From positions 1 through 25,268 of IMG/VR virus record IMGVR_UViG_3300021185_003007: 25,268 nt of DNA. One strand, written 5' to 3'. The DNA is from a virus. The notes under the pieces were generated by a model that was given only the letters and a program-made list of their open reading frames with translations, was not told the DNA's origin and made no database searches. How positions within the stretch are numbered: position 1 is the stretch's first letter; every line of letters begins with the position of its first letter. The translations under genes and the position numbers were made by a program. Shown one piece after another: positions 7,497 to 25,268 of this stretch.

Positions 7497-9812
7497 CTAA
7501 TTAGTAAGTCTAGCCCCTAAAGCTAATGCTGATCCTACTTTTCCTCCATCTAAGTAAACATCTCCTCCCTCTTTTACAACCTTTATCAACTCCTGTAATA
7601 GTTTTTCTACATTACCTCCTAGTTTTGTACCTCCTGCCATTGTCAGAGTGTCTTTTGGATTTGTTTGTATTGTAAAGTCATCAACCTTAAGATTACCAGA
7701 TGCTCCTCCAGTACTTTTATACGCGTCAGTTATACCGCTAGCGTTCATATTTTCCTGCCCTGATAAAGTACCTATTCCTGCGGCAATACCAGTACCTATA
7801 TCTAATGCACTAGTTACTGCCATCATACCATGATCTGCTGCTTTTGCACCATACTGTTTTGCGAGGTCAAATTGCATACTTTTAAAGTAGTAGGCTGCTT
7901 GTAACGCTGAAACAACTGCCATTACGGCGTGATACGCAGCTGATAGCGGTGAAATTAAAGTTCCATGAATTATTTGACCTATACCTTTAAATATTCTGGA
8001 TATTGATTTGACATCACCTAGCATATTCGTAATTTTACCTTCTGGACCACCTAAGCTTGCTGCAAATACCTCTACTTTCCTAACTGTGTCTTCTATAATT
8101 TTAGGGTTTTGTTCAAGAAAACCGAAAACTTTCTCTACTGCTGGTGCTATAGAGATCATGAATATTTTTTTCATGTTCTCTAAAAGGTTATTCATTTTGT
8201 CTTGGAAGGATAGGTTATTTTTCATAGTTGTGAACTGTTCCATTCCTATTTTTTTAAGAGCTTCTTCCTGTGTCATTGTTTTAAGGAGTTTTTGGTACTC
8301 CTGCTCCCTTGCGTCTGCTGTAGCGAATCCTGCTTTTTCAAGTGCTTTTTGGTCCATAAACATTTTTGCAAGATCATCTTTAGACATACTTAAAGATTTT
8401 GCTATAGCCTCTTGTGCATACACATTATTGGTGGAGAATGCTTCTTGTATAGCTTCTTGTTTTGATATTTCTTTAGCCACAGTAGCATAATCTTGATTGG
8501 CTGCTGCTGCTCTAGCTTTACTTAAATCTAGTTTTTTACCAGTCAGTAACTGTGCAGTCATTTCTGCTTCAATACTGGTTTCATAATCTAAAAGTCCAGC
8601 AGATATATTCTCTACTTGGGATAAAGTAAGTCCTACCTTTCTTGCTTGTACTGCTGCGTTACTTAAAGCTTTAGCTGAAAAATCTGAGTTAACTCTAAAT
8701 GATGCTGAAGATGTAGCAATATCTTGCATTATAGCTTTAGATGAAATATTAACACCTAGTTGCATTTCTAATGCTTCAGCTGCTCCTAATGCTTCAGTTG
8801 CAAAGTTCCCTGAAGATTGTCCTGATGCTACTAGGCTTCTAGCGATTTCTTGAGTTTGTTCTACACTTAAACCTAATCTGTAGTTTAATGTATCTAAATC
8901 GGCATTAAATACCTCTACATTCTTAGACATTATACCTGTAGAATTCGCAAAAGTGTTTGCTAACTCTGCTCCTTTACCCATCCTTTGGGTAAGTAGGCTA
9001 GCACCTCTATCAGCTTTATTAAAATTAAAAACTGTTGCTGCTGCTGCTTCTTTAGTTTCGTTAAAAGCTGAAGCTGTTTCTGCAGTGCTTTTATCTATCG
9101 ATAACATTAATTTTACTAATCCAGTAATTCCTCCTACGATTAGTCCTACATATCCACCAGATTTCATAAAATTCATAGCAGAAGATGCGGCAGATTTAGC
9201 AAATCCTTTTGCTCCAGCTGCTAAAACGCTCATTTGTTTCCCGCCTTTAGAATTAGAGATCACTGTTTGTCTTGCTGCTTTAGCTGCATCTTGGAAAGGT
9301 CCTGCAAGTTTTCGAAGTCCTGGTATATCGCTGACTACATCTGAGATTCCGGAGAAAAAGGAAGTTCGTGCGTCTAACTTAGCAGCATTTGAAGCAATGT
9401 CTCCATAAATCTTAGAAAGATCGTCTGCATTATCTCTTGCGGCTGATAAGTTTCTAGCTTGGGATATTACTGCAGCTTGTGCATCTCCTGTTAATGTCTT
9501 CGCTCTTTTATATAGTTTATTAATTTCTATATTAAGATCCTTTACCCTATTCTGATTCGCTTCTTGTTCTTTAACAGCTTTTGCAGTAGCTTTAGTAGAT
9601 TTTGCTGCTGATGCTTGTAATTCTGATACTTTTGATGCGCTGGATGTAATCTTAGAATACATACTGCTAACGAATGTAATCATTTCGCCATTTTTCTGCA
9701 TTTCTTTGTTAGCCATACCCGTTTCACGGGCAATCTCTTTCATTGCATTTTTAATGTCTTGAGCTTTTGAGACGGAATCGTCGCTAAACTCTATATTATT
9801 ATCGTCAGCCAT
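7497..9812 (-). CDS. Tail tape measure protein
   Basis: This 771-residue protein is rich in Ala, Lys, Ser and Thr. It has long helical, coiled-coil-like stretches at about 10-150, a Gly-rich hydrophobic segment at about 219-238 (GGYVGLIVGGITGLVKL) and another Ala-rich hydrophobic region near 590-680. This composition is typical of tape measures, which set tail length, fill the tube lumen and are ejected before DNA. The gene follows the probable frameshifted chaperone pair and precedes the baseplate genes, the expected place. It has no visible muramidase or peptidase domain; the wall-degrading function seems to sit in the hub instead. Two ORFs on the plus strand inside it are shadows. Confidence 0.85.
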   Translation of the reverse strand: MADDNNIEFSDDSVSKAQDIKNAMKEIARETGMANKEMQKNGEMITFVSSMYSKITSSASKVSELQASAAKSTKATAKAVKEQEANQNRVKDLNIEINKLYKRAKTLTGDAQAAVISQARNLSAARDNADDLSKIYGDIASNAAKLDARTSFFSGISDVVSDIPGLRKLAGPFQDAAKAARQTVISNSKGGKQMSVLAAGAKGFAKSAASSAMNFMKSGGYVGLIVGGITGLVKLMLSIDKSTAETASAFNETKEAAAATVFNFNKADRGASLLTQRMGKGAELANTFANSTGIMSKNVEVFNADLDTLNYRLGLSVEQTQEIARSLVASGQSSGNFATEALGAAEALEMQLGVNISSKAIMQDIATSSASFRVNSDFSAKALSNAAVQARKVGLTLSQVENISAGLLDYETSIEAEMTAQLLTGKKLDLSKARAAAANQDYATVAKEISKQEAIQEAFSTNNVYAQEAIAKSLSMSKDDLAKMFMDQKALEKAGFATADAREQEYQKLLKTMTQEEALKKIGMEQFTTMKNNLSFQDKMNNLLENMKKIFMISIAPAVEKVFGFLEQNPKIIEDTVRKVEVFAASLGGPEGKITNMLGDVKSISRIFKGIGQIIHGTLISPLSAAYHAVMAVVSALQAAYYFKSMQFDLAKQYGAKAADHGMMAVTSALDIGTGIAAGIGTLSGQENMNASGITDAYKSTGGASGNLKVDDFTIQTNPKDTLTMAGGTKLGGNVEKLLQELIKVVKEGGDVYLDGGKVGSALALGARLTN

Positions 9813-9840: not shown

Positions 9841-9865
9841 AAGGCCTCTACTATTTAGAAGCCTT
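9841..9865 (-). other. Hairpin with stop codon of chaperone extension in its loop
   Basis: The coding strand reads AAGGCTTCTA, loop AATAG, then TAGAGGCCTT: a 10-bp stem with one G-T pair and a 5-base loop containing the TAG stop of the extension. No T-run follows, so it is not a standard intrinsic terminator. It may slow ribosomes or stabilise the message end, or it may be incidental. Confidence 0.4.
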
Positions 9866-10093
9866 AGTTATAAAATTAGGGTTTTTTGGTTTGTTAGTCT
9901 GTTTAGACTGTTTATTTAGTTTATCTGTTTCTTCTTTTTGATTTTGGTAATGTTCTTGTATTTTACTGAAAGTAAACTTACGTAGCCATATAGGCATACT
10001 GTAAACAGTCTCCCAAGTAAAACCACCTTTACCGAAAAATACTATATCGTGTATTTGAGAAAAAACTAACTCTCTATACTGCGGCGTCAGGCC
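9851..10093 (-). CDS. C-terminal extension of tail assembly chaperone, read by probable frameshift
   Basis: This region lies in the +1 frame relative to the gp26-type gene and ends with TAG at 9851-9853. From the slip point it encodes about 80 residues: GLTPQYRELVFSQIHDIVFF, then GKGGFTWETVYSMPIWLRKF, and a Lys/Gln/Asn-rich tail. The first ATG is at the Met of SMPIW, well inside the conserved-looking part; no ATG, GTG or TTG precedes it after the in-frame TAG at 10109-10111. The only way to translate all of it is from the overlapping upstream gene. This layout (chaperone, overlapping out-of-frame extension, then tape measure) is that of lambda G/GT and many tailed phages, where the long form binds the tape measure. 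Independent initiation at the internal Met is the alternative. Confidence 0.72.
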   Translation of the reverse strand, partial: GLTPQYRELVFSQIHDIVFFGKGGFTWETVYSMPIWLRKFTFSKIQEHYQNQKEETDKLNKQSKQTNKPKNPNFITKASK

Positions 10094-10814
10094 AAAAAAA
10101 GCCGATCCCTATTGGAATCTCGACCTCCTCCTTTCTGTCTTCTACATAAAACTCCATTCTAATGTCTGGTGAAATTTCACTATAGTATTTTCTGATAGCC
10201 CTAGCATCCTTGGCTAATAAAAAATTATCTACAAAGTTTCTAATCTCTTTAGTCTCTCTATTGCCGTTTACTGAGGTTATCATATGTTTTAACCTAGTTG
10301 TTGTAAGAGTAGAAGAATTTTTATTTATTTTTTTATTACCTTCAATTTCTCTTTCAATTAATGTTTCGTCTTTATGAGTTAGTATTTTAATAGTAACTGA
10401 ATTACCTGTTGAGGGTAAATCAAAAATAAAGTCGTTCTTTCTGTCTTTGAGTAAAGTGTAATCAATATCCTTATTTTCTAATGCACTAAGGTCTACTGTA
10501 ACTTCTTCATCCATATACTTAAAAGAATAATCTTTTCCATATGATAATACTCTGGCTGCCATCATTATAGCGTTTTTATCTCCAATCAGTAGGTTATCAT
10601 AACTTACACCTTCAGTTACGATAAGAGAGTTTAGTAACTTATCTATTACAGTTCCGTTTTTTATGTAATTTTGATTTGTCAATATGTCCTCTTCTTTTGC
10701 GGTCATATATTTCATTTCAATTTTACCGCTTGATAGTGGAGAGTCCTCAGGGTATAGTAACCCTTTAGATGGTAAGTCTACAGTTTCTGTAGGGAGTTTA
10801 AATTGTGATTCCAT
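10074..10814 (-). CDS. gp26-type protein, probable tail assembly chaperone (short form)
   Basis: This 246-residue protein starts MESQFKLPTETVDLPSKGLL and continues with MKYMTAKEEDILTN (about 35-48) and NGTVIDKLL, a signature of the T4 'base plate protein' gp26 family. The open frame extends upstream to 10877, but that stretch would translate promoter and terminator sequence; the ATG at 10814 gives the family-typical N-terminus and is chosen. The protein ends in IPIGIGFFWPDAAV. Its last codons overlap the out-of-frame extension at a run of seven T. T4 gp26 is described as a baseplate hub component, but the position here, just before the tape measure and with a frameshift extension, points to a tail assembly chaperone that is absent from the virion. 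The family match is firm; the chaperone role is inferred. Confidence 0.78.
   Translation of the reverse strand: MESQFKLPTETVDLPSKGLLYPEDSPLSSGKIEMKYMTAKEEDILTNQNYIKNGTVIDKLLNSLIVTEGVSYDNLLIGDKNAIMMAARVLSYGKDYSFKYMDEEVTVDLSALENKDIDYTLLKDRKNDFIFDLPSTGNSVTIKILTHKDETLIEREIEGNKKINKNSSTLTTTRLKHMITSVNGNRETKEIRNFVDNFLLAKDARAIRKYYSEISPDIRMEFYVEDRKEEVEIPIGIGFFWPDAAV
10094..10103 (-). other. Probable programmed frameshift site (T7 run)
   Basis: The coding strand reads GGC TTT TTT TGG in the chaperone frame. Skipping one T gives GGC TTT TTT GGC CTG, entering the extension frame; a -2 slip reaches the same frame with one more Phe. The site lies inside the short overlap between the +1-frame TAG (10109-10111) and the chaperone stop (10074-10076). 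Confidence 0.65.
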
Positions 10815-10932: not shown

Positions 10933-11418
10933 TTAGTAGTTTAATACGCAGTAGTCCATTGCTACTGTAATGCTGATTTCAACAGCTTCATCAGATGTCC
11001 AGTCATATTGACCAAAGTCTCCGTTTGATAGTATAGCACCTTTGATGATCCATTCTCCTACGATGTCTCCTACAGGTCCTAAAATATTTAAAGTTAAATC
11101 CTTTTTATAGAAATCAGAGTATCCTGCTCTACCAGTTACTGATTCGTAACCTTGTCTTGCCCACTCCATTACTGCTTGAGCTCCACTTGGTGTTACTGGA
11201 TCGTAAAGTGTCATGGTCATATCGTCCCATTCTCTTTTTCCTCTAATTTTTCTATATGAATTGATGTGATCTAATTTGATAACGTTATCGGTGAAGGTAG
11301 GAGCTTTTACATTCTTTACCATAAAGGAAGGAATTCCGTCGATAAGCATTACAAATCTGTTCTGTACTTTCGGTTCGAAAGCTTTAAACATTATTTCGTT
11401 TGGATCTAATATTGCCAT
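10933..11418 (-). CDS. Tail tube protein (gp19 family)
   Basis: This 161-residue protein has the size of T4 gp19. Key features are NRFVMLIDGIPSFMVKNVKAP (21-41), the strand that opens tube proteins of this family, HINSYRKIRGKREWDDMTMT (51-70), the W-A-R-Q-G-Y segment, and 'LNILGPVGDIVGEWIIKGA' near 110-128, ending in SITVAMDYCVLNY. Subunits stack into the inner hexameric tube through which DNA passes. The gene follows the sheath as usual in T4-type phages and ends before a strong intrinsic terminator. A TATTTATAATA motif lies 17 bases upstream of the ATG. The family call is secure from length, motifs and context. Confidence 0.92.
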   Translation of the reverse strand: MAILDPNEIMFKAFEPKVQNRFVMLIDGIPSFMVKNVKAPTFTDNVIKLDHINSYRKIRGKREWDDMTMTLYDPVTPSGAQAVMEWARQGYESVTGRAGYSDFYKKDLTLNILGPVGDIVGEWIIKGAILSNGDFGQYDWTSDEAVEISITVAMDYCVLNY

Positions 11419-11457: not shown

Positions 11458-13215
11458 TTATCCGTTAAAAGTTGCTCCAGTAGGTTCAACTGTGAAGTCT
11501 AGTACTATAAATTCTGCTGTTTTAGCTGGCTGAATAAATATTTGACCTACCAATTGGTTTCTGTCTACAACATCTGCGGTGTTGTTTGTATCATCCATTA
11601 CTACTCTAAAGGTATAAAGACCTTGTCTCTGTACTACTGATTCTAAGTATGGATTCACTATAGATAAAAATCTGTTTCTAGTTGCTACTGTATTTTGTTC
11701 AAATACTAAGTTTCTAGCTTGATCTCCTAAGAACTTCTTAAGCTCGATTAATAATCTTCTTACGTTTACTCTATCTAAAGCTGATGCTTTAGTCTGTAAA
11801 GTCTTTTGTCCAAATACTGCAATACCTTGTCCAGGGAAAGTAGCAATTGGATTAACTTTACCATCATACAATAAGTCTCTTTGACCTCTTGTTAATTTTT
11901 GTTCTGCTTGAATTACTCCAACGATTCCTCCTCTTACTAATCCAGCTGGTGCGAACCAAGGTGCTGAACTATTATCTGTAAATGCATATACTCCTGGTAT
12001 AACACAAGAAGCAGGGACATATACGTTTCTTCCCGTAGCAGATACAACTTGTACCCATGGCCAATAAGAAGAAGCATATGAACTATTTAATCCTGTAGCA
12101 GTTGATGTAATATTACTTACAGTAGAACCATAAGTTTCTAAATCTATTACTGCGATACAATCTCCTCTAGATTCTGCTAAAGTTACTACACTATTTAAGA
12201 CTCCTGCTTGATCAGCATTCTTATATACCATTCCTGGTGCTGATAAGATGTTAAATATGTATTCGTCTTTATTATCTAAGATTGATATAGCATCTGTATA
12301 ATTACCAGATGTTAAACCTTGAGAGTTTGTATTTGATATTGAACTAAAGTAATTTGCTCCTGCTACAGCGTTAACTCCGGTAGCGTTATAGAATGATCCA
12401 GATTCAGCGATCGGTAAAGATCCTGAGTAAGAATTTCCATCTCCGTCTACTCCTACAGATGTACCATCGTTTTGAAGGTAGTTAACTGTTGCTGAATTTA
12501 CTGCAGAAACATAAATGAAGTTAGACTTATTTACGTAATCTCCTTGAGTCTTAACGTATGTCTTAGTTCCGTCTGTTGCTTTAGTTTTATATTGAGTACC
12601 AATTACACTTTCAATGTAGTTAGAAGAATTAGGATCTAAACTAATATTGTTAAATGTCTCTAATACTACTTTATTACTGTGGCTATCGTCTCCTCTTCTT
12701 ACTGTCAAAGAGAAAGTTCCTTTTTTAGCGTCAACGTTTTGTATTTGCCATCTAATATTATCAACTGTTCCAGAAACTAATGATCCTCCAGAACCTGCAA
12801 TTTCTGCTCCTGGGTTAGTTATTGAGACTGAGTTATTAAAGATAGCTCCTTTTCCTAATGTTTTAATTTCAAAAGGTTGAACACTATCGTTAAGTGATGA
12901 TGAAATGTGAGTAGATGATGCTGGAGTAAATGATCCAGTAACTACTCTTGTCATCAATACAGAATTACCTCCTTGTTGGAAGTAGTTTTTAACCGATATT
13001 GAGGTTAAGTATTCTTGTTTTGTTGATGCTGATACAAAAGTTTCTCCAAACTGTCTAACATACTGATTATAGGATGTTACAATAGTTGGTTCTTCTACTG
13101 GTCCTTTAACTGAAGGTCCGATGATTGCAGCGCCAGCTTCTACTGGAGCAGGCTGGATAAAAGAAATATCGTTTTCTCTTGCAAATACACCCGGTGAGAT
13201 GATTGATTCTGCCAT
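11458..13215 (-). CDS. Tail sheath protein (gp18 family)
   Basis: This 585-residue protein has the classic sheath N-terminus: ISPGVFARENDISFI, then AAIIGPSVKGPVEEPTIVTS and 'YVRQFGE'. It has a large, variable Ser/Asn/Gly-rich central insertion (about 90-310) expected on the outside of the sheath. The conserved C-terminal domain is also present: LIELKKFLGDQARNLVFEQN, RFLSIVNPYLESVVQRQGLY and 'NQLVGQIFIQPAKTAEFIVL'. The sheath surrounds the tube and contracts to drive it through the envelope. It stands immediately before the tube gene, as in T4. Two TATTTAT motifs and a hairpin precede it. Confidence 0.95.
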   Translation of the reverse strand: MAESIISPGVFARENDISFIQPAPVEAGAAIIGPSVKGPVEEPTIVTSYNQYVRQFGETFVSASTKQEYLTSISVKNYFQQGGNSVLMTRVVTGSFTPASSTHISSSLNDSVQPFEIKTLGKGAIFNNSVSITNPGAEIAGSGGSLVSGTVDNIRWQIQNVDAKKGTFSLTVRRGDDSHSNKVVLETFNNISLDPNSSNYIESVIGTQYKTKATDGTKTYVKTQGDYVNKSNFIYVSAVNSATVNYLQNDGTSVGVDGDGNSYSGSLPIAESGSFYNATGVNAVAGANYFSSISNTNSQGLTSGNYTDAISILDNKDEYIFNILSAPGMVYKNADQAGVLNSVVTLAESRGDCIAVIDLETYGSTVSNITSTATGLNSSYASSYWPWVQVVSATGRNVYVPASCVIPGVYAFTDNSSAPWFAPAGLVRGGIVGVIQAEQKLTRGQRDLLYDGKVNPIATFPGQGIAVFGQKTLQTKASALDRVNVRRLLIELKKFLGDQARNLVFEQNTVATRNRFLSIVNPYLESVVQRQGLYTFRVVMDDTNNTADVVDRNQLVGQIFIQPAKTAEFIVLDFTVEPTGATFNG

Positions 13216-14162: not shown

Positions 14163-14819
14163 CTAAATTTGTATATTAAAGTTAATAACTGCTCTACTAG
14201 TCTTGCCGTAAAAAGGTTCAACTGAATGTACTATATCGTAAGGCCATATAAGTAGCATTCCTTTTTTTGGTCTAATATAATGTTTCATACCTCTTATATG
14301 AAAAGAAAATACCCCGCTATATGGATGGTCTTTAATAGGGTCTCCATCAGATAGGTAATAACCTCCTGAGAACATTAATGGTTTAGCTTCACTATGATGC
14401 CATCTACAGTGGTTGTGAGCGTTATGACCTCTACCTGAGGTAGGTTCGTAATACTGTAACCAACTTTCTGTAATCTCTGGTTTACTCTTATATGTTATTC
14501 CGATAGAGTCAAGTAACTTACAGAAACTACCTTTTATACGTCTTTTTATTATCTGTACGTTTTCATCTTTATTTTGTAGAAAATCATTCGGTGGAGTAAA
14601 GAATCTACTTCCTATAGGTTGAAGTTCATGCTCTTCTACCCATTCCTCCTGTCTATCGTAATTTATACCGTAATTAGCTTGTCTTTCTCTATCATACTGT
14701 CCTAGGTTATAAACTGAGGTTGTTATATTATCATCAAATACTCTTTTAAATAGAGGTATGGGTGCTAAATGATAAATGTCCTGTATTGAGGTTTCTATTA
14801 GTGGTTTTTTGAAATTCAT
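14163..14819 (-). CDS. 2-oxoglutarate/Fe(II)-dependent oxygenase
   Basis: This 218-residue protein resembles phage-borne 2OG-Fe(II) oxygenases. A His-rich segment GHNAHNHCRWHHSEAKP (131-147) is followed by FSGGYYLSDGD (150-160), the strand typical of this fold. Later come KKGMLLIWPYDIVHSVEP (185-202) and SRAVINFNI (208-216), supplying the distal His198 and the Arg209 that would bind 2-oxoglutarate. The first metal ligand pair is not certain: H142-x-E144 fits HxE by spacing to the YYL strand, while H135/H137 recalls HxH in a related family. Such enzymes hydroxylate proteins, sugars or small molecules; the substrate is unknown. It is the last gene of the tightly packed modification operon, 3 bases after the radical SAM gene. 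Confidence 0.78.
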   Translation of the reverse strand: MNFKKPLIETSIQDIYHLAPIPLFKRVFDDNITTSVYNLGQYDRERQANYGINYDRQEEWVEEHELQPIGSRFFTPPNDFLQNKDENVQIIKRRIKGSFCKLLDSIGITYKSKPEITESWLQYYEPTSGRGHNAHNHCRWHHSEAKPLMFSGGYYLSDGDPIKDHPYSGVFSFHIRGMKHYIRPKKGMLLIWPYDIVHSVEPFYGKTSRAVINFNIQI

Positions 14820-14822
14820 ATG

Positions 14823-15848
14823 TTATTTTAAATATCCGTTATGAAAAGGTACATAGAAGTCTACGTTATAGTTTTTACTTTTTGCATATTCTTCTGCATC
14901 TTTTTGAGCTTCCCAGAAAATTTTCCAGTTGTTACTGTTACAAAGTTTACTATCATCTATCTTTAAGTCTGCTTGGTATTTCATAGTTAATGTAAACTGA
15001 GTACTGTTAGATCCTACTTCAATACCTAAATCTATCATTTCTTTTAACTCATATACATTATATAAGTTAATATTGTTAGTAGTATAAGACCTATCATTAA
15101 TTTCTGTTTTCTCTTTTACTTTTTTGAAATAAGAAGTTAAATTCTTTTTTATCTTATTAAAATAATCTAGTCTTCTGATTTTTATATATGTTTCGGCGGT
15201 TCCTGCATCTATAGAAAAACCTAAATGTACGTTTTTTACTATATTTAAAAACCTATCTTGAGCTCTTTCAGTAAAAATTGTACCGTTACAAAAAGTCCAA
15301 AATAAAATATTATCTCTATATTTAGTAAATTCTAATTTTTCAAAAACATCAAATATCCTGTTCTTATAAAAAGGTTCGGCTATACCCAAGATAGAAAGGT
15401 TCTGAACATTAGGCATTGCTGTCTTTACTTCTTCTAAAATATCATCTAATATATCAGTACCTACTCCGCTCATAAATTGTTCGCTACTTCTAGGGCACAT
15501 AATACAAGCAGTTTCCGGTGTGGGATTTAGACCTCCAATGTTACAAAATGTAGAAGGCATGTTTAATTCTAAATCTATTGGGTACTTAGTTAGTTTAACC
15601 TCTTTATGTGGTATTCTACTAAGGTCGTAAAATCTTAAGGGACAACGATCATTATCACAGTATTCTTTATCCAACTTACCTTGTAGCATTGAGTTTTTTA
15701 CTTTTCTTAGTTCTGGATTTTTAAAAGCTTTTTCAATACCGTCTTCTAATATATTACCGTACATAGAAGACTGGAAGCAGCAGGAATGGTAAGAACCGTC
15801 TTCGTTTATTTTTAATCTAGTAAAAGGTAAGCTGCAAAGTGCTTTCAT
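14823..15848 (-). CDS. Radical SAM protein with N-terminal SPASM/twitch-like segment
   Basis: In this 341-residue protein the first ~75 residues read like a SPASM/twitch segment placed before the core: C5-S-L-P-F-T-x-L-K-I-N-E-D-G-S (5-19), CC at 23-24, 'YGNILEDGIEKAF' and C64/C69, a likely auxiliary Fe-S site. The radical SAM part follows: DLELNMPSTFC102, an insertion, then A-C115-I-M-C118-P-R-S. Later segments fit the barrel: SILGIAEPF (G-x-GEP-like) and HLGFSIDAGTAETYIKIRR, a common motif in SPASM enzymes. The cluster spacing is CX12CX2C rather than CX3CX2C. Radical SAM enzymes cut S-adenosylmethionine to start radical chemistry on peptides, sugars or tRNA; the substrate here is unknown. 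The start overlaps the upstream stop (TAATG), so it is coupled to the glycosyltransferase-like genes. Confidence 0.8.
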   Translation of the reverse strand: MKALCSLPFTRLKINEDGSYHSCCFQSSMYGNILEDGIEKAFKNPELRKVKNSMLQGKLDKEYCDNDRCPLRFYDLSRIPHKEVKLTKYPIDLELNMPSTFCNIGGLNPTPETACIMCPRSSEQFMSGVGTDILDDILEEVKTAMPNVQNLSILGIAEPFYKNRIFDVFEKLEFTKYRDNILFWTFCNGTIFTERAQDRFLNIVKNVHLGFSIDAGTAETYIKIRRLDYFNKIKKNLTSYFKKVKEKTEINDRSYTTNNINLYNVYELKEMIDLGIEVGSNSTQFTLTMKYQADLKIDDSKLCNSNNWKIFWEAQKDAEEYAKSKNYNVDFYVPFHNGYLK

Positions 15849-16618
15849 TAAATATGTTTAAAGTATATATCCATATCAATCTTATTATTAATATATTTAT
15901 TTAATTTTCTCTGTATCTTGCTAATTTTAAAATAGTGATCAGTTCTATCATCACTCACCCCTTGTACATATGTAGGTTGGAATCTATCTATATATTCTTC
16001 CAAAGAACAATTAGCATAAAGTAACATAGCGTGCTCTTCTATACATCCTTCAATTTTATTATTAACTGTTATATCAATTAAGTCTCTACCTAAATTTCTA
16101 TTTGAGGTGTATAGACAACCAAAATTCGGAGAAGCTAACCCTTCTTCAAAGTCCCAGTTGTACTTTTTAAATTCTCTTTCTAAAACTTTAAAATATTCTA
16201 GGTTATAATCTAAAATTAATCTTCCTTCAAATGTTTCTTTAAACGAATCAACTGTTTCTTTATGTTGTGCATACAAAGGACATAAAGTTTCATTCTTACC
16301 TAATAATTTATAAAAATTCTCATCTAACGGTCTTAAAGCATAACAGTCCCAATCTAACATTATAACTTTTTCAAATTTTTGAAGAGCTAAATCTAATGCT
16401 ACTAACTTTTTACCGTATTGAGTATTATAAGAATCAAAGTAAGGGTAAGATTCCTCTACTAAAAAAGTTTTGAATCCTCGATTTTGTAAATATTCTTCAT
16501 TATCTTTGCCCCATACGTATACTAAATGATTAATGTATACAGGTAATCTAGGTATCTCTGCTTTTGTTTCATTCCGGTTACCCCAGTACGTTCTAATTAT
16601 CGGTATCGTTGTATTCAT
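15848..16618 (-). CDS. Putative glycosyltransferase (GT-A-like, DWD motif)
   Basis: This 256-residue protein contains 'FEKVIMLDWDCYALRPLDE' (82-100), a hydrophobic strand ending in D89-W-D91, which has the form of the metal- and nucleotide-sugar-binding DxD of GT-A glycosyltransferases. Upstream are a 'VYVWGKDNEEYL' strand and 'YGKKLVALDLAL', similar to GT families that read 'Y..K...L.......vlylD.D'. The C-terminal half has 'GLASPNFGCLYTSNRNLGRDL', fitting an acceptor-side loop. There is no membrane segment or signal peptide, so it should act in the host cytoplasm. It overlaps the preceding glycosyltransferase-like gene by 26 bases and the next gene by one base. The acceptor could be a virion protein or a host glycan. 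The exact GT family is not assigned. Confidence 0.68.
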   Translation of the reverse strand: MNTTIPIIRTYWGNRNETKAEIPRLPVYINHLVYVWGKDNEEYLQNRGFKTFLVEESYPYFDSYNTQYGKKLVALDLALQKFEKVIMLDWDCYALRPLDENFYKLLGKNETLCPLYAQHKETVDSFKETFEGRLILDYNLEYFKVLEREFKKYNWDFEEGLASPNFGCLYTSNRNLGRDLIDITVNNKIEGCIEEHAMLLYANCSLEEYIDRFQPTYVQGVSDDRTDHYFKISKIQRKLNKYINNKIDMDIYFKHI

Positions 16619-17585
16619 CCCAATCTTTTTTAAACCTTGAATGCTGTAGGTATTTACCTAATCCTAATTCTATACATTCTCTAAAGTATCTTTTAGTTTC
16701 TCTTTTTAAAAACTCTGGATACATATTGAAATGTATTTTGTTAAACCAGACATGCTCCCATATTAAGTCTTTGTCTTTTTTATTATCAGCACCTAATGGC
16801 ATATACCATTGTTCTGATTTACCTTTGTACCTTTCTTCTTTAGAAGCATAATTACTATTGGCTAAGAAAACCTTATCAGTTAATGTATTTGCCTTGTAAT
16901 CACCTTCTCTAATAACATGTCCTAAAATTCCTTGATCAGTAAGTAACCAAAACCATTCAGGTACATCGTTACCATTAGTTTCTACTAATTTTTTATGCCA
17001 TCTGGTGTATTCTCTGTTTAAGTCCATATTATTGACTGCTAAAAAAGAAGTGTTAGGACACAGGTCACTACAGTTGTAATTAGTAGGGAAATCAATATGT
17101 TTAATCTCTCTTTCCCAATCTTGTTCTTCAAAATAATAATAACCTCTTGGTATCTCCCAATGCGTTGCAGTTACATCTCCTTTTAATATGTATTCCGGTA
17201 TTGGCTGCCGTATAATCATATCCTGATCCATAAATACGAACGGTTCTTTTTGGTTAGCCAATACTTTAATTTTACCGCTAGTCCAGAATCTTGCTGGGTC
17301 TATTTTACCTTTAGAGTAACCATCTAAAAAAGATATATTAACTTCATCGTATAAATCATTAATACCGAATTGCTGGTAGAAGTTAAATCCTATAGAATCG
17401 GTGTATAGTTTTATAGAGCCGTTGTGCAATTTCCATAATCCTGCGGACAGTATAGTATATAATATCTGATAGTTTGGTTGATCGTAGCATTCTCCTTTTA
17501 AATCTCTTGTAGCTCTAAATCCATGCCCTCTCAATCTATCTCGATCAAAAAATGGTTTCGTCCAATTTACATGAATACCTTTCAT
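16593..17585 (-). CDS. Putative glycosyltransferase (GT-A-like, DQD motif)
   Basis: This 330-residue protein has a GT-A-like N-terminal half: 'NYQILYTILSAGLWKLH' (38-54), 'IKLYTDSIGFNFYQQFG' (58-74), 'FWTSGKIKVLANQKEPF' (100-116) and 'VFMDQDMIIRQPIPEY' with D120-Q-D122 in the DxD position. A later segment 'DLCPNTSFLAVNNMDL' fits the strand after the donor site. The C-terminus is rich in Trp, Tyr and charged residues with a 'WEHVWFNKIHFNMYPE' segment. It resembles Bacteroidota proteins of unassigned glycosyltransferase-like families, but I cannot name one with certainty. The start lies one base after the GT25 stop, indicating coupling. It is unlike its downstream neighbour apart from the fold, so the two probably act on different sugars or steps. 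Confidence 0.65.
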   Translation of the reverse strand: MKGIHVNWTKPFFDRDRLRGHGFRATRDLKGECYDQPNYQILYTILSAGLWKLHNGSIKLYTDSIGFNFYQQFGINDLYDEVNISFLDGYSKGKIDPARFWTSGKIKVLANQKEPFVFMDQDMIIRQPIPEYILKGDVTATHWEIPRGYYYFEEQDWEREIKHIDFPTNYNCSDLCPNTSFLAVNNMDLNREYTRWHKKLVETNGNDVPEWFWLLTDQGILGHVIREGDYKANTLTDKVFLANSNYASKEERYKGKSEQWYMPLGADNKKDKDLIWEHVWFNKIHFNMYPEFLKRETKRYFRECIELGLGKYLQHSRFKKDWDEYNDTDN

Positions 17586-17586
17586 A

Positions 17587-18459
17587 TTAAACCTCTAAGT
17601 GTATATACGCCCATTTAACAGGCTTAACACTAAGATAAGATTTAAAGTAATTAAAAACAACTTTATTTACAGAAAAAGATGTTGCTACATTAGCATTCTG
17701 TATATCGTAAGGGGAATCTTGCTCTTTTCTTACTTCTTCTGCAGTTGACCCATGCCATTCGGCAGAAGAATTAGCATGCCATAGTGCTAAATGCATTCTT
17801 TCCATATGATCTTCATTAATTATACCTCTTTTCTGTATAAACAGAGAATCTTCAGGAGATATAATATTTAAATCTAACGTTTCTAAAAGTACATCTGCTG
17901 CGTATCTTATTGGTTTTACTTTATCTGATATAATTTTTGCAGATTTTCTGTTTAACTGATATGCATGGGCAGAGTATTTATCTGACAGTAGATTTGGATT
18001 AAATATTTCTGAATGTTCTGTTGGATTTTTACCTATTATGGGTTCATGCATTCTTCCCCATATGACTATATCATAATCTACTCTTTTAACTTGTGATATA
18101 AATCTATCTAATCTACCTGTTATTTTATAGGTATACATTTTATCACTAAATAGTACATCATCTTCTAGTATCAGACAAGTTTCATGTTTGGTTGCTAAAA
18201 AAGTTTTATACGCTAATTGATGTGAAAGAGCGCAACCTATTATATTTTTGGTAAGTAGTCCATTACAGTCTATAAAAATAGAATTTAATGTACCCTCCTT
18301 AATAAGTTGCTTTTGTCCTTTTAGTTCACTTCCTGGTATAGCTTCTATAAATTTATAGTTAGTAATATTATACTCTTTAAACAATTTTACTATTCTATTT
18401 TTCCGTTCAGGGTATGTAGGTAGGTTTATTATGTAAATAATATCAACTCCAAAATCCAT
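17587..18459 (-). CDS. Glycosyltransferase family 25 (LPS-type)
   Basis: This 290-residue protein has the landmarks of GT25: YIINLPTYPERKNRI (9-23), 'YKFIEAIPGSEL' (35-46), the conserved IIGCALSHQLAYKTFL (73-88) and CLILEDDVLF (95-104) with the acidic donor/metal site. Further on, 'DIVIWGR' and 'HAYQLNRKSAKIIS' match the middle of the domain. Family members are galactosyl- or glucosyltransferases for lipooligosaccharide or for protein-linked glycans such as hydroxylysine in collagen-type systems. In this phage it opens a five-gene modification run after the fiber and a 181-residue gene. Either fiber glycosylation or remodelling of host surface sugar is plausible; the donor sugar cannot be read from the sequence. 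Confidence 0.85.
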   Translation of the reverse strand: MDFGVDIIYIINLPTYPERKNRIVKLFKEYNITNYKFIEAIPGSELKGQKQLIKEGTLNSIFIDCNGLLTKNIIGCALSHQLAYKTFLATKHETCLILEDDVLFSDKMYTYKITGRLDRFISQVKRVDYDIVIWGRMHEPIIGKNPTEHSEIFNPNLLSDKYSAHAYQLNRKSAKIISDKVKPIRYAADVLLETLDLNIISPEDSLFIQKRGIINEDHMERMHLALWHANSSAEWHGSTAEEVRKEQDSPYDIQNANVATSFSVNKVVFNYFKSYLSVKPVKWAYIHLEV

Positions 18460-19045: not shown

Positions 19046-22000
19046 TTATTTACTCTCCAACTTTTTTATTCTATCTTCTAACTTATCGATAGTTTCTTGC
19101 TGTTCTTTAATACCTTCTATTAATAGAGCTACTAGTTTTTCATATTTTACAGCTTTATGTCCATTTTTTCTAGTTTGAACTATTTCTGGTAAAACTTCTT
19201 CTACTTCTTGTGCTACAATTCCAATATCTCTACTACCTACTTCGTAAGTATCTTGTTTATCGTTCCAATTAAAAGAGTACCCGGAAAGTTTATTTATTTT
19301 TAATAATGGGTCATTAATTTTAACTAAGTTATCCTTTAAATTTTTATCCGAAGAGTAGTAAGCTACTACATCACCGGTTGATCTCAAAGTACCGTCTACA
19401 ACGACGTAAGTTCCTGCTCTATCTCCATACATTACGAGATTACCGGCAGCAGAATTATCGTGGCCCCACATACCCCATTGTCCGTTTCCAATTTGGCTAA
19501 GCCCAGTCCAAGTATTTCCGCTAGCTCCTACAATAGAAGTTGCGCCTCCTCTATACCCTAAAGACATACCGTATTTATCCATAGCAGCAGTTGTACTGTT
19601 ATGTTCTGTGAAAAATATTCTACTACTTCCTTCACCTGATCCATCTGCATTACCTTCGATAGATATAAATCTAGCAGATGAATTTGTTCCATTACCAGGT
19701 AAACCAAAAGTTTGGTTACCCATTACTGTTAATTTAGCTGATGTAGCAGGGCTCGTCGTCCCAATCCCGATGTTTCCGTCATTACTTACTGTTAATTTAG
19801 CATCTGCAGTAGTCGCATTTGTTTGGTCTGCTGCATTGTTAACGCACAAATGAAGTTTACCTCTTGAATAACTTAATCCTGCGTCTTCAAATAAAATAGC
19901 TGATTTAGTGTTGTTTGATTCTCCTCCAATTCCAATACCAGTCCAAATTCCATCTTCGTTAGTAGTGCTACCTTCTATTCTAACAGCATAGGCATCATCA
20001 TCATCTGTGTGTATATGTAATTTAGCACTAGGACTAGACGTTCCAATCCCGACGTTGCCGGCTGAATTAATACGCATTCTTTCTGAACCATTATTTGAAA
20101 AAACAGTACCACTTGCTCCATATGCACTTAATACAAAATTTGCATTAGTGTTATCATAAGCAATGTTTGCTTTTTCAGTTCCATTATTACCCCAAGCAAT
20201 CGAAGTGTATTGTGAGCCTGCACTATCAACCCATATACCATTATCATTTCCACCATATACTGTTAATTTTTTACTTGGACTAGTAGTCCCGATACCGACG
20301 TTTCCGTTGTACTCGATTGACATACGAGTAACAGGAGCTGTTGTTCCAGATGATAAAGCTTTTGTTTGAAACTGTATAGCTCCTCCCCAGTCATTTCCAG
20401 AATCTCCTCTTTCAATAAATTTAATTCTATTAATAACATGTGGATTTGATTCTTGGTAAGTTCTTCTATAATCTACTATTGCAGTACCAAAGCCGTTATA
20501 TCCCACTGAAGCGTGAGAAGAACCTAAACTTAGTATGTCTGTTGTAGTTGTTCTAGATGTACTATTCACCTTAAATCCATGTATAGGGCTTGCAGGAGAA
20601 ACGGTACCTACTCCTATATTTTTAGCTTGTAATGTCTGTACTGCAAAATCTCCTATTCCCTGTTCTAGCGGATTATTTACTATGCTTGTAGTAGGGCTTA
20701 CTGATTGACTATTATTAGTATACGTTGAGCTTCGAGGAGTAATACTTAATCCAGCTCTGTTTGCAAAAAAGAAATACGTCATTCCTCCTCTTAAGTATAC
20801 AACCTCAACACTACCATTAGTCATTTGAGTAATACCTCCAACTAATTTTACATTTGTATATCTTTCATCCCAATCATATATTGTTCTATGTCCGTAGTTA
20901 GTTCCCCAACCGTTACCTATCGTTGACCATTTTATATAAAGTGAGACTCCAGAACTGTGAGTTGCATAAGATGGATCATCTCCTGAGTTTAGTGGAACTT
21001 CGATTCTTAATTCTGTTTCTCTACCAACCTGTAATGGAATAGTAACTGGGTAATATGTATTTTCTGCAAATGTGCTGGTATTGCTCATATCCACAGTATA
21101 AGCTACATTTCCTTGAACATTACCACCATTAAAAGTAAACTCCCCATTTACTGTAAGGTCTTGAGCAAAAGTAGCGTCTTGATTAGAATTAATAGTAAGT
21201 GCTGTGGTACTATTAGTAGCTAAATACAAACTATTTGCAGTAGAAGTTCGTACTGTCCCTGTTCCTGCATTAAAACTAACTCTTCTACTTGTACCATCAA
21301 TTTGTAAATCAGTTGCTCCTTTTATTGATACATCTCCTCCAACTAGTAGTCTTTCTGATGTGCCGCTATATACATGTAAAGAGCCCGCAGGAGTTGTAGT
21401 GCTTATACCTACATAACCTGAACTATTAATCGTGAAAGGTTGAGTATAGGTTATAGGGTCACCTGCTGTTCCGCTTGCTGCTTGTCTAAAAGATAAATTT
21501 TGTGATGAACCGCCTACCTGTAAGACTGCTGCTGGATTAGTAGATTTATATTTCCAACCACTATTGTAATAAGCGTTTGAATTTACATAAGTGGCACCTG
21601 CATAACCCCATATTCCGCCATTACCTAATAAATCTAAATTTACAGATGTACCTAATGAATGTGCAAAAGGTGTAACTCCTATACCTACACTTCCGTTATG
21701 GTCTATCCTAACAGCTTCATCTAGTGTTTCATTATTTTGTGAGATAAAGAAACCTAAACCTGTGCTTGAATCTGTATCACCTGCTTCTTCTCTAATGGCA
21801 GCAATACTTGCTCCTACTAAACTATTACCTGGTGTTCCAGAGTCATTTCCTGCTATTCTAAATTTAATACCAACTCCTTCACCTCCTTGTTGGTTAAGTG
21901 AATTACCATCATCTCTTGATGTTATAACTACTGGGTAGTCTATGGTTGACGCTGCTGATAGTTGTTGAGATATTTCTAGTTTACCTGCAGGAGATGATGT

Positions 22001-25000
22001 CCCCAATCCGAGATTACCTGTAGCGTGCTTGATGATAAATTCATTATTAGCAACTCCTGGTGAGCCTGATATTGAAGGCATTGTTCTTATATAAAAGTCT
22101 CCAGCAGTATAGTTGTTAATATTACCTACTAGCCAACCTTTTCCGTTTGTATAATCCCATAACCTGATAGAAGGGCCATCTGTCCAAGAATTACCGTTAC
22201 CATTAATTTGTAATCTACCAACTGGAGCTGTTGTGCCTATACCTACATTACCGGTATCATTAATAAGCATCCTTGTTACTCCTGCCGGCATTAATATTAA
22301 ACTATTTCCAGAGTTACCTATTTCAGCTGTTCCTGAAGGATCTTTAAATTCAATGGCAGCGGTTCCGTCTGTGCTTTCAAACCTAGCTGTTACGTTTGGT
22401 GTTCCAGAATTTACATGTAATTTTCTTCCGGGAGAACCTGTACCTATCCCTACATCTCCGTCAGTAGCCATAACAAAATCGTTACCGAAGTTAGCCTTAT
22501 AATTAACAGATTCATTAGGAGTATTAGCATCTGCTGATATAGCTGCATCTGCCCAAGACCATCCTTCTGCATGTGATGCGCCGCCGAATGCGTTATATAA
22601 ACTTTCCACGTACATTTTTGGCCAGTACCCTGGGTCGCTTAGATGTATTACTACTTTATTATTTTCTACAGCTAATGTAATATCTGGAGCCCATGCTCCA
22701 CTACTAGTTGCAGTTCTATTGTAAAAACTATCATTATATACGTGCCATCCTATTTGTATGTTTGCAGTCTGTGCTGAACCATATTGGAAACCTTTTATAT
22801 TTACTGAATGAGCATGAGTACTTGCTGAAGCTCCTGAGTACGGTATACTAGTGGTTATTTTTATTTGAGTTGGAGTTCCTCCTGATGTAATTTCCAAAAC
22901 TCCGATAGAGTATACCCCGCTGTCTTGGGTATGGCTGGATATTGCACCGTCAACCTCTAAAGTGGTTGCTGGGTTTGTTACTCCTATCCCTACGTGACCT
23001 TGATGATCTACTCTAAATCTTTCTGCTAAACCAGTACTTGCACCTAATTCATCGCTTCCAATAGGAGAGGTGTACACTACAAATGCTCCGGAACCTTCTT
23101 TAGATATTGCATCTGCATCAGAATTTGGTCCTACTTGAGCACCTATACGTACCTGCGGTGTGTGATTTGCATTACTATCTACAAATGTAAAATCTAAATA
23201 AGATTTTTGAGAACCTATATCACTTGCGGTATTTTTATTAGCTAGAGTAATAAATATATTATCTGCTAATACTTTTTCTAGGTATAAAGATCCTCTAACG
23301 TCCAACTTAGCACTAGGGATAGTCGTTCCTATACCTACCATACCGTTATTTGTAAACCTTATCTTTTCAGCACCTTCAAAGAAGAATCCTAAATCAGAGT
23401 CATCTGTTGCTTGTCTTATACCTGCTATATGAATATCTGCATCATTATTTCTAAAATGCAGCATAGCCATAGTTCCAGCAGTATTGACAGTATTTTCTAT
23501 TCTTATACCTTCACTACCCCATGCGCCAGCAGAACCACCAGAAAATGAAGTATCTGTGTTGGCAAACTCAACATGTAATTTCTGATCAGGACTAGTCGTC
23601 CCGATACCTACGCTACCGCCATTAAAATACGAAGTACCTCCTGATGCAATCTGTACATTTTTTGTAGTACCGTCAGAAGTGTACATATCTAATCTTGATG
23701 CGTTACCTGTACCTCCTATGTAAAAGTCAAATCTTGATTCATCATTTGAAGTCTTAAATCTCACATACCTTTCTGCATCCGTTCCCATAACTTGCATTAT
23801 AGAATCGGCATCTGCTGTTGTAGTACCTAAAAATAATCTACTACCTAAGTAATGTTTATCTCCTTCTACATGTAAACCCCATGCGTCAGGTCCTTTAGTT
23901 CCTTGATAATCTCCTTTAAATAGAAACTGGTCACCAAAGTCAGGAACTGCACCTTCATTGTTATCTATTACTGCCATTACGGCGATCATTTCACCGTAAG
24001 ATAAGTTTGCTGTGTTAGCATCTATGGTTACTTCTCCTTGTACACCTTTAGTAACTCCAGTATCTACTGTTCTAGTAGAAGTTATATTAGTATTAAAGAA
24101 TCCTCCGTAGGAACTGCCAACTGTTCCTTGATCTTGTACAGAACTTAAACCGTACATCCCGTACATATTAGTAACTCCACCATCTGTTGCTCCTGCATCA
24201 TGTACACCTTCAGCATACGCTCCAATTATTTGAGCGGTATTTTCTGTTATGTTGTTTGATTCTGCGTGAAACCAAGCTCCTCTTACTATATCTGAAAAAC
24301 CGCTAAATCTTACATCAGCAGCTACACCGTATATTCTATGCTCGTTAGATATATCTCCATCTGCTGTTGAATCAAGGTCTACATGTAGTCCGTAATGTGT
24401 TCTATCTGCATCTGTGTTATCAGTACCCGATAGGTCCATATCAATTTGTAGAGCTCGTGTTGGTACATTAGAATCACTTCTAGTATGTATTATTTTAACA
24501 GTATTATCTCCATCTGAAGTCCCTGATGAAACAACAAGTTTAGCGTTAACAGGGTTAGTACTTCCAATACCTACATTACCACCAGATAAAATTGTTAGTC
24601 TTTGTGTATCACTAGTATAAAGTTTAATTTGTTTGGTTTCTCCGTTATTAATTAAAAAATCTCCATCAGCATCAATACCTAATGTTGTTCCTGTGGTTGC
24701 TGTTCCGTTTGTAAATTTTTGATAAGTAGCGGTTAATGTTGCAGTATTATGAATATGTAATTTTTGACCAGGGTTATCAGTACCGATACCTACGTTACCG
24801 TTTTGTGCTATTCCAAATCTCTGTGTAAATGTAGATCCTCCTTGGGCAGAAGACTGGTCGATAGAAAATCCTCCCCAGTTTCCAGATCCAAAGTTATTGG
24901 TCATTAGCCTCCAGTTTCTATTTTCAGAATATGTATGATCAGAATACATTTTTATTTGAGAATAGACTTCTCCATGTACCTGCAAAGGAGCAGATGGAGT

Positions 25001-25268
25001 AGTAGTACCAATTCCTAAAAAACCGGAAGGTATGTATACATCACCGGAATTTTTCATAGCTAACACTACTTCTGCTTCACTTTCATTGTAAAAGTAAATC
25101 TGAGATGTATCGTGTTCTATGGAATATGTATCTGTGCTTGAACGATCGTCTATAAATTGTAATTTTTTATCCCCAGCAGCACGGTGAACCGTAAGTGTAT
25201 TTCTAAATATTCCGGTACCGTCAACATCTAGTGTTTTGGTAGGACTAGTAGTACCTATACCAATATTT
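19046..25268 (-). CDS. Giant tail fiber with S74 self-cleaving chaperone domain (5' end cut by window)
   Basis: The frame stays open to the right edge of the window, giving at least 2073 codons; the true start is outside. It holds 16 copies of a 'N-V-G-I-G-T-T-x-P-x-x-K-L-x-V' unit spaced irregularly between beta-rich, Ser/Thr/Asn/Gly-rich segments, as in trimeric fibers built of repeated heads and beta-helices. The C-terminal ~110 residues are a Peptidase_S74 (endosialidase-type) intramolecular chaperone: YYSSDKNLKDN, 'SGYSFNWNDK', 'RDIGIVAQEVEEVLPEIV', 'KAVKYEKLVALLIEGIKEQQ' and a final coiled coil. The Ser-Lys dyad suggests self-cleavage before the second Ser of SSDK after trimer folding, releasing ~101 residues. 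The protein is the likely host-recognition fiber. No enzymatic depolymerase motif is visible. Confidence 0.85.
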   Translation of the reverse strand, partial: NIGIGTTSPTKTLDVDGTGIFRNTLTVHRAAGDKKLQFIDDRSSTDTYSIEHDTSQIYFYNESEAEVVLAMKNSGDVYIPSGFLGIGTTTPSAPLQVHGEVYSQIKMYSDHTYSENRNWRLMTNNFGSGNWGGFSIDQSSAQGGSTFTQRFGIAQNGNVGIGTDNPGQKLHIHNTATLTATYQKFTNGTATTGTTLGIDADGDFLINNGETKQIKLYTSDTQRLTILSGGNVGIGSTNPVNAKLVVSSGTSDGDNTVKIIHTRSDSNVPTRALQIDMDLSGTDNTDADRTHYGLHVDLDSTADGDISNEHRIYGVAADVRFSGFSDIVRGAWFHAESNNITENTAQIIGAYAEGVHDAGATDGGVTNMYGMYGLSSVQDQGTVGSSYGGFFNTNITSTRTVDTGVTKGVQGEVTIDANTANLSYGEMIAVMAVIDNNEGAVPDFGDQFLFKGDYQGTKGPDAWGLHVEGDKHYLGSRLFLGTTTADADSIMQVMGTDAERYVRFKTSNDESRFDFYIGGTGNASRLDMYTSDGTTKNVQIASGGTSYFNGGSVGIGTTSPDQKLHVEFANTDTSFSGGSAGAWGSEGIRIENTVNTAGTMAMLHFRNNDADIHIAGIRQATDDSDLGFFFEGAEKIRFTNNGMVGIGTTIPSAKLDVRGSLYLEKVLADNIFITLANKNTASDIGSQKSYLDFTFVDSNANHTPQVRIGAQVGPNSDADAISKEGSGAFVVYTSPIGSDELGASTGLAERFRVDHQGHVGIGVTNPATTLEVDGAISSHTQDSGVYSIGVLEITSGGTPTQIKITTSIPYSGASASTHAHSVNIKGFQYGSAQTANIQIGWHVYNDSFYNRTATSSGAWAPDITLAVENNKVVIHLSDPGYWPKMYVESLYNAFGGASHAEGWSWADAAISADANTPNESVNYKANFGNDFVMATDGDVGIGTGSPGRKLHVNSGTPNVTARFESTDGTAAIEFKDPSGTAEIGNSGNSLILMPAGVTRMLINDTGNVGIGTTAPVGRLQINGNGNSWTDGPSIRLWDYTNGKGWLVGNINNYTAGDFYIRTMPSISGSPGVANNEFIIKHATGNLGLGTSSPAGKLEISQQLSAASTIDYPVVITSRDDGNSLNQQGGEGVGIKFRIAGNDSGTPGNSLVGASIAAIREEAGDTDSSTGLGFFISQNNETLDEAVRIDHNGSVGIGVTPFAHSLGTSVNLDLLGNGGIWGYAGATYVNSNAYYNSGWKYKSTNPAAVLQVGGSSQNLSFRQAASGTAGDPITYTQPFTINSSGYVGISTTTPAGSLHVYSGTSERLLVGGDVSIKGATDLQIDGTSRRVSFNAGTGTVRTSTANSLYLATNSTTALTINSNQDATFAQDLTVNGEFTFNGGNVQGNVAYTVDMSNTSTFAENTYYPVTIPLQVGRETELRIEVPLNSGDDPSYATHSSGVSLYIKWSTIGNGWGTNYGHRTIYDWDERYTNVKLVGGITQMTNGSVEVVYLRGGMTYFFFANRAGLSITPRSSTYTNNSQSVSPTTSIVNNPLEQGIGDFAVQTLQAKNIGVGTVSPASPIHGFKVNSTSRTTTTDILSLGSSHASVGYNGFGTAIVDYRRTYQESNPHVINRIKFIERGDSGNDWGGAIQFQTKALSSGTTAPVTRMSIEYNGNVGIGTTSPSKKLTVYGGNDNGIWVDSAGSQYTSIAWGNNGTEKANIAYDNTNANFVLSAYGASGTVFSNNGSERMRINSAGNVGIGTSSPSAKLHIHTDDDDAYAVRIEGSTTNEDGIWTGIGIGGESNNTKSAILFEDAGLSYSRGKLHLCVNNAADQTNATTADAKLTVSNDGNIGIGTTSPATSAKLTVMGNQTFGLPGNGTNSSARFISIEGNADGSGEGSSRIFFTEHNSTTAAMDKYGMSLGYRGGATSIVGASGNTWTGLSQIGNGQWGMWGHDNSAAGNLVMYGDRAGTYVVVDGTLRSTGDVVAYYSSDKNLKDNLVKINDPLLKINKLSGYSFNWNDKQDTYEVGSRDIGIVAQEVEEVLPEIVQTRKNGHKAVKYEKLVALLIEGIKEQQETIDKLEDRIKKLESK
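19349..19354 (-). other. Predicted S74 autocleavage point in fiber
   Basis: The codons TCT TCG encode the Ser-Ser of YYSSDKNLK. In endosialidase-type chaperone domains cleavage occurs just before the Ser of an S-D/E-x-x-x-K motif; here that Ser codon is 19349-19351. The Lys four positions later (SDKNLK) would complete the dyad. Confidence 0.6.
19750..25268 (-). repeat. Sixteen GIGTT-P repeats in fiber gene
   Basis: Copies lie near 25240, 24993, 24769, 24549, 23586, 23315, 22971, 22430, 22220, 21990, 21662, 21384, 20587, 20278, 20031 and 19750. Each encodes a variant of N-V-G-I-G-T-T-S-P followed by a K-L-x-V strand. Spacing runs from about 200 to about 960 bases. Several copies (20278, 20031, 19750, 23586) use GC-rich codons such as GTC GGG ATT GGA ACG, unlike the A/T-rich codons of the rest, so the DNA similarity among these is higher than protein constraint needs. 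Confidence 0.85.

Follow-up and report, generated by a model that had tools for sequence, protein, structure and literature searches.

In the window analysed here, a 25,268-nucleotide stretch of viral DNA (IMG/VR record IMGVR_UViG_3300021185_003007), the gene for a gp26-type protein is followed by an open reading frame that lies in another frame, ends ahead of the putative tape measure gene and has no start codon before its conserved part. How, then, is this extension translated? We propose, with a probability of about 0.86, that a T4-type pair of tail assembly chaperones (TAC) is produced from one gene by +1 programmed frameshifting at a UUU_Y site. The proposal is built on the frame offset, the coding constraint, the conservation of the slip site and of dual coding, the homology to gp51 and the gene-copy pattern, all of which were observed here.

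Organization of the tail module

A contractile-tail module occupies the minus strand of the window, with genes for the sheath, the tube, the gp26-type protein, the extension and the putative tape measure. Its features are as follows.

11458-13215, minus strand: tail sheath protein (phrog_23, E 1.7e-75)
10933-11418, minus strand: tail tube protein (phrog_4542, E 3.2e-23)
10074-10814, minus strand: gp26-type gene, putative short tail assembly chaperone of 246 aa, zero frame (PF12322, phrog_150)
10074-10108, minus strand: overlap of both open frames, dual-coding WPD / GLT (CCT 126/127, GAC 94/94)
10101, minus strand: nucleotide preceding the shift site, C in the window (T avoided in the +1 clade)
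10094-10100, minus strand: predicted shift site TTT TTT T(GG), with a core of UUU then a pyrimidine (260/260 +1 loci)
9851-10093, minus strand: +1-frame C-terminal domain of the putative long chaperone, GLTPQYRELVF...KASK, stop included (dN/dS, kyanophage profile match)
9851-10814, minus strand: predicted +1 frameshift product, long TAC, 320 aa (reading of both frames; fused-protein model)
7497-9812, minus strand: tape measure protein, expected chaperone target (position and immuto annotation)

The gp26-type frame runs from an ATG at 10814 to a TAG at 10076-10074. The +1 frame is open from just after a TAG at 10111-10109 to its own TAG at 9853-9851, which gives 86 codons including the stop (10108-9851), and it encodes both QIHDIVFFGKGG and MPIWLRKFTF. 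Where the frames overlap the sequence reads GGC (10103-10101) TTT TTT TGG (the last codon at 10094-10092), followed by CCT GAC. The initial annotation had bounded the overlap by the same two TAG codons and placed GGC TTT TTT TGG within it, which we confirmed; the gap of 238 bases that it gave between the gp26 stop and the tape measure ATG (9812) is actually 261 bases long. Its description of the extension as lacking a start ahead of the conserved part also holds, as no ATG, GTG or TTG precedes the conserved block in the +1 frame of the window and the sole ATG (at about 9998) is inside that block. The order of sheath, tube, gp26, extension and tape measure is common to the window and the Flavobacterium isolate immuto, with the gene directly before the tape measure. 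The tape measure protein itself had no PHROG match of its own in the profile search.

The extension evolves as a protein at a constant frame offset

Comparison of 566 moderately diverged pairs revealed that, past the gp26 stop, substitutions fall mainly on third codon positions of the +1 frame, for which dN/dS is 0.12; the two other frames give 1.35 and 1.58. The extension thus evolves as a protein, far from chance, in agreement with the earlier claim that the gap is coding in the +1 frame.

Used as separate queries, the gp26 protein and the extension yielded 160 viral loci, and the +1 offset was found in all 159 sequences that hold both parts, the window included. Sampling was widened by searching with distant gp26 proteins, those of Microcystis phage Mel-JY01, Listeria LIS04 and two huge-phage genomes. 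Where the extension was recognizable, it was positioned in the +1 frame in 260 loci, in the -1 frame in 4 and in the zero frame in none. It was not recognized in a further nine, six of which are truncated by the contig end (L052, L074, L203, L247, L270 and L271); the remaining three are RM378, L272 and L273. The +1 frame of RM378 is open after FFW, but the extension was missed by the profile and this genome was left out of the counts. The 260 loci include some duplicates of one locus; the statistics that follow rest on 131 representatives that are less than 85% identical.

The +1 layout is also present in isolates, namely Flavobacterium immuto, Microcystis Mel-JY01, Streptococcus GXN1 and Listeria LIS04, and in nine contigs from a genome collection, including several Flavobacteriales MAGs. 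While indels are possible in single metagenomic contigs, neither such an error of sequencing or assembly nor the decay of a pseudogene would give 260 loci and cultured isolates one shared offset together with purifying selection; the isolates refute this explanation, and we regard it as vanishingly improbable.

Two observations concern individual records. The annotated start of immuto KNV73_gp038 (L162, 4854-4964) is an internal ATG, so that most of the conserved block is lost. A +1-type gp26 locus also occurs in a 2.8 Mb contig labelled as a candidate division WOR-3 chromosome (L298; CP070664.1, 2763509-2770258), which is either an integrated phage or a misassembly.

The overlap is dual-coding and contains an invariant predicted slip site

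The proline codon of the overlap motif is CCT in 126 of 127 representatives, compared with 41% elsewhere in the gene, and the aspartate codon is GAC in 94 of 94, compared with 23% elsewhere. Because this fixation is what dual coding of WPD in the zero frame and GLT in the +1 frame requires, the short and the long product both appear to be selected.

Within the overlap, every +1 locus (260/260) has TTT as an in-frame codon with T or C as the next base, and the slip motif lies 15-24 nt ahead of the stop in 131/131 representatives. Most loci have TTT TTT TGG. The variants are TTT CTT TGG (28 loci), TTC TTT TGG (14), CTT TTT TGG (3) and TTT CTA (3), together with TTC TTT CGT, TTT TTT AGT, TTT TTT CAC and TTT TTT CGT; the site in Streptococcus GXN1 reads UUC UUU CGU C. 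The sequence UUU then U or C is invariant, so that a move of one base forward always leaves tRNA-Phe a UUU or UUC codon to re-pair with. As a test, the initial annotation had named a shared overlap, offset and T-run under synonymous constraint in related phages. The overlap, the offset and the constraint are indeed conserved; the T-run is not, and the conserved element is instead UUU followed by a pyrimidine.

The same variants bear on the direction and level of the shift, which the initial annotation had given as +1 or -2. The final frame is +1 in all 260 loci, and it would also be reached by -2 ribosomal frameshifting (GGC UUU UUU UUU GGC), which is documented for phage Mu and would add one extra Phe. 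While UUU UUU permits perfect -2 re-pairing in most loci, re-pairing by -2 would be mismatched at TTC TTT (15 loci) and TTT CTA (3), where +1 re-pairing to UUU or UUC is still perfect. Alternatively, the RNA polymerase product could lose one U or gain two by transcriptional slippage on the T7 run, as seven Ts are present in the window and in many relatives. However, 28 loci carry TTTCTTTGG, in which the longest T run is three, and the frame is also kept by TTCTTTCGT, TTTCTATGG and TTCTTTTGG. Because the frame persists in the TTT CTT, TTC TTT and TTT CTA variants, we favour a +1 shift; a -2 shift is rather unlikely, and transcriptional slippage is very unlikely.

The base ahead of the first Phe codon is C in 92, G in 28, A in 9 and T in 2 of the 131 representatives, while synonymous usage predicts about 71 T, 33 A, 21 C and 5.5 G. 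T and A are thus strongly avoided before the site, which is a nucleotide-level constraint at a position where the zero frame alone is needed. A T here would form U_UUU_UUY, a -1 slippery heptamer. Among the 260 loci of the +1 clade, this heptamer occurs only in L048-L051 and L080. Heptamer avoidance would account for the depletion of T but not for that of A (9 versus 33 expected).

These features also bear on whether the extension could be a small gene of its own, translated from a non-canonical start or through reinitiation after termination close to the gp26 stop. An ATG-initiated ORF does occur at the gp26 stop in L262 and L267, and possibly in L166 and L272-L274, and in the S-PM2 annotation the homologous domain forms an independent CDS, 'gp51'. 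However, ATG, GTG and TTG are all absent before the conserved block in 47 of the 131 representatives, the window among them, and the extra +1-frame start codons of the other 84 are not conserved in position. CTG was considered as a start codon and ruled out, as it changes to CTT, CTA or CTC in relatives. A separate gene would also leave the fixed CCT and GAC codons, the universal TTT_Y and the avoided T at the preceding base unaccounted for, and is in our judgement quite unlikely.

Potential stimulators of a +1 shift were also surveyed. RNA folding z-scores near the site did not exceed controls, save for a mild -0.9 at +14 to +114, and there was no consistent Shine-Dalgarno sequence at a fixed functional distance. 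A Shine-Dalgarno-like GGAGG approximately 30 nt upstream in some subclades was rejected, as it is too distant for known +1 stimulation and encodes an EE stretch. UUU_C is the established +1 site of influenza PA-X, for which such forward re-pairing has been shown, and the 2012 report on it predicted a wider UUU_C class (PMC3498833). According to the PRFect paper, UUU is among the most slippery codons ahead of an RF2-type site (PMC10885494).

The two predicted products resemble T4 gp26 and gp51

The gp26-type protein of the window matched PF12322 (T4_baseplate) with an E-value of 4.4e-5 and 23.7 bits, just under the curated cut-off of 24.5, and matched the baseplate hub family phrog_150 with an E-value of 3.8e-9. 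The +1-type relatives LIS04 (5e-24) and GXN1 (4e-25) score above the PF12322 cut-off. T4 gp26 and T4 gp51 are both members of PF12322; T4 has two genes of this type and each +1-type isolate has one. In profile comparisons the extension of the window matched the C-domain of kyanophages (96%, E 1.5e-9), this C-domain matched the C-terminus of T4 gp51 (98%, E 3.1e-12), and the fused window-type protein matched the fused kyanophage protein across most of its length (E 5.7e-13). Profile comparison with T4 gp51 directly was weak for the extension (E 0.005) and gave an E-value of approximately 0.1 for the fused protein. Judged by these comparisons, the extension is homologous to the C-terminal part of T4 gp51, a relationship that is firm only via the kyanophages. 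Because the N-domain falls in PF12322 and the extension matches the gp51-type C-domain, the long product would correspond to T4 gp51 and the short product to gp26. T4 gp26 and gp51 are listed as hub assembly chaperones in a T4 review (PMC3004832). The earlier suggestion that gp26-family proteins are assembly chaperones is supported by the gp51 homology and, for T4 gp26, had already been made in that review (PMC3004832).

A structural model of the fusion had a mean pLDDT of 73 and a pTM of 0.40, with low values near the junction and with the extension predicted as helices. Its best matches among viral structures include gp26-type and 'baseplate hub assembly' proteins. Comparison with the PDB returned no significant match; the HK97 tail assembly chaperone 2ob9 was in the top ten with an E-value of 2.8.

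Proposed mechanism

Under +1 frameshifting, the majority of ribosomes would terminate at the TAG at 10076-10074 and release the short, 246-aa gp26-type form. A minority would slip +1 on UUU_U (GGC UUU UUU U to ...UUU GGC CUG), with tRNA-Phe re-pairing one base forward while the following codon waits, and translation in the +1 frame would then yield a fusion of 320 aa that ends in a helical C-terminal domain of 80 residues. If the parallel with lambda gpG/gpGT holds, the tape measure would be coated by the N-terminal part, and tail tube subunits would be recruited through the C-domain. Following the account of such chaperones given in PMC5009743, short copies would be many and long ones few, and together they would hold the tape measure, recruit tube subunits and then depart. 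Within this scheme we infer the occurrence and efficiency of frameshifting, the ratio of short to long product, the partners that the chaperones bind and their absence from virions.

Kyanophages and pelagiphages carry the opposite offset

The kyanophages S-PM2 and HTVC008M have a gp26 gene followed by a short ORF annotated as 'baseplate hub assembly catalyst', which is named gp51 in S-PM2. In a sample of kyanophage and pelagiphage loci, the C-domain is in the -1 frame in 88 of 90. T_TTT_TTY is present in all 36 representatives of this group (L310-L398, L400, S-PM2 as L401 and HTVC008M as L402), on the Phe-Phe codons homologous to the +1 site, and nearly all of the extensions have some start codon. 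From these sequences, a -1 programmed frameshift at this gp26, annotated as two genes in a model group of cyanophages, is probable, although the case is less clear than that for +1.

A start codon belonging to the extension, which the initial annotation had set against frameshifting, does exist in a few distant relatives. In the clearest two, L262 and L267, the ATG lies just past the gp26 stop (3218 and 3215, respectively) in the -1 frame, and TTT_Y has been lost (TTC TTG and TTC CTT), so that these two serve as natural controls. No locus was found with the extension in the same frame as gp26, another arrangement that it had set against a shift (0 zero-frame versus 260 +1 loci). A huge-phage group (L166, L272-L274) combines T_TTT_TTC in gp26 with an open -1 frame, and also has an ATG where gp26 stops.

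We lean towards the view that, across T4-type phages, recoding can switch at a single Phe-Phe codon pair at the gp26 end, which is used for -1 in kyanophages and for +1 in the clade of the window. With similarly modest confidence, this would mean that the direction flipped, that the +1 clade was selected against the -1 heptamer, that T4 has two genes in place of the site and that a few lineages gained a start codon.

Comparison with known recoding systems

The layout that the initial annotation likened to lambda G/GT, with a C-terminal domain in another frame before the tape measure, is present in the window, and the shift itself would follow by inference. As in lambda gpG/gpGT, a short and a C-terminally extended form would come from one gene located directly before the tape measure, the extension is in another frame without a start of its own, and the overlap falls a few codons ahead of the stop. 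Lambda, however, shifts -1 whereas the window is predicted to shift +1, and the N-domain of the window belongs to the T4 gp26 family (PF12322) and not to that of gpG. T4 itself shares the gp26-type N-domain, and the extension is homologous to the part of gp51 beyond its gp26-like region, but T4 uses two genes and no frameshift in place of one gene with a predicted +1 shift.

A parallel at the codon level is influenza A PA-X (UCC_UUU_CGU), where P-site tRNA-Phe slips from UUU to UUY without an evident stimulator and to which the GXN1 site is near-identical. The product here, in contrast, would be a bacterial phage assembly chaperone rather than a host shut-off protein, and the next codon is mostly UUU then UGG, or CUU. 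Phage Mu (-2) and HSTV-2 (+1) also reach the long form of a tail chaperone in the +1 frame; they belong to other phage groups. The kyanophage gp26 and 'gp51' of S-PM2 and HTVC008M share homologous N- and C-domains, their order and the Phe-Phe codons at the junction with the window, but differ in that their extension occupies the -1 frame and their U_UUU_UUY is invariant.

According to PMC5009743, the tail-chaperone frameshift is conserved widely among phages with long tails, 'except T4', with Mu (-2) and HSTV-2 (probable +1) among the cases given. A non-frameshift mechanism was proposed for T4-like phages by Vladimirov et al. (2022), as described in PMC10274946. Titles, abstracts and passages searched contained no match for a +1 UUU_Y shift in a T4-type clade or for a -1/+1 contrast at one site. 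A frameshifted TAC is a known kind; what appears to be new is its +1 UUU_Y form in T4-type phages, together with the switch of direction. A marine T4-type clade, mostly found with Flavobacteriales, appears to shift +1 at a minimal UUU_Y site, and its locus would be the single-gene counterpart of T4 gp26 plus gp51. Such a shift would explain why annotations such as that of immuto miss the extension or start it in the wrong place, and the end of gp26 is a homologous site at which -1 and +1 recoding could be compared in naturally occurring phages.

Other genes in the window

Between the sheath gene and the fibre gene, the products of positions 14163-18459 resemble, by eye, an oxygenase, a radical-SAM protein and glycosyltransferases, and a role in virion or tail decoration is possible. 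The fibre protein (19046-25066) is at least 2006 aa long and contains repeated VGIGTTSP-type units, and its C-terminus looks like an intramolecular chaperone.
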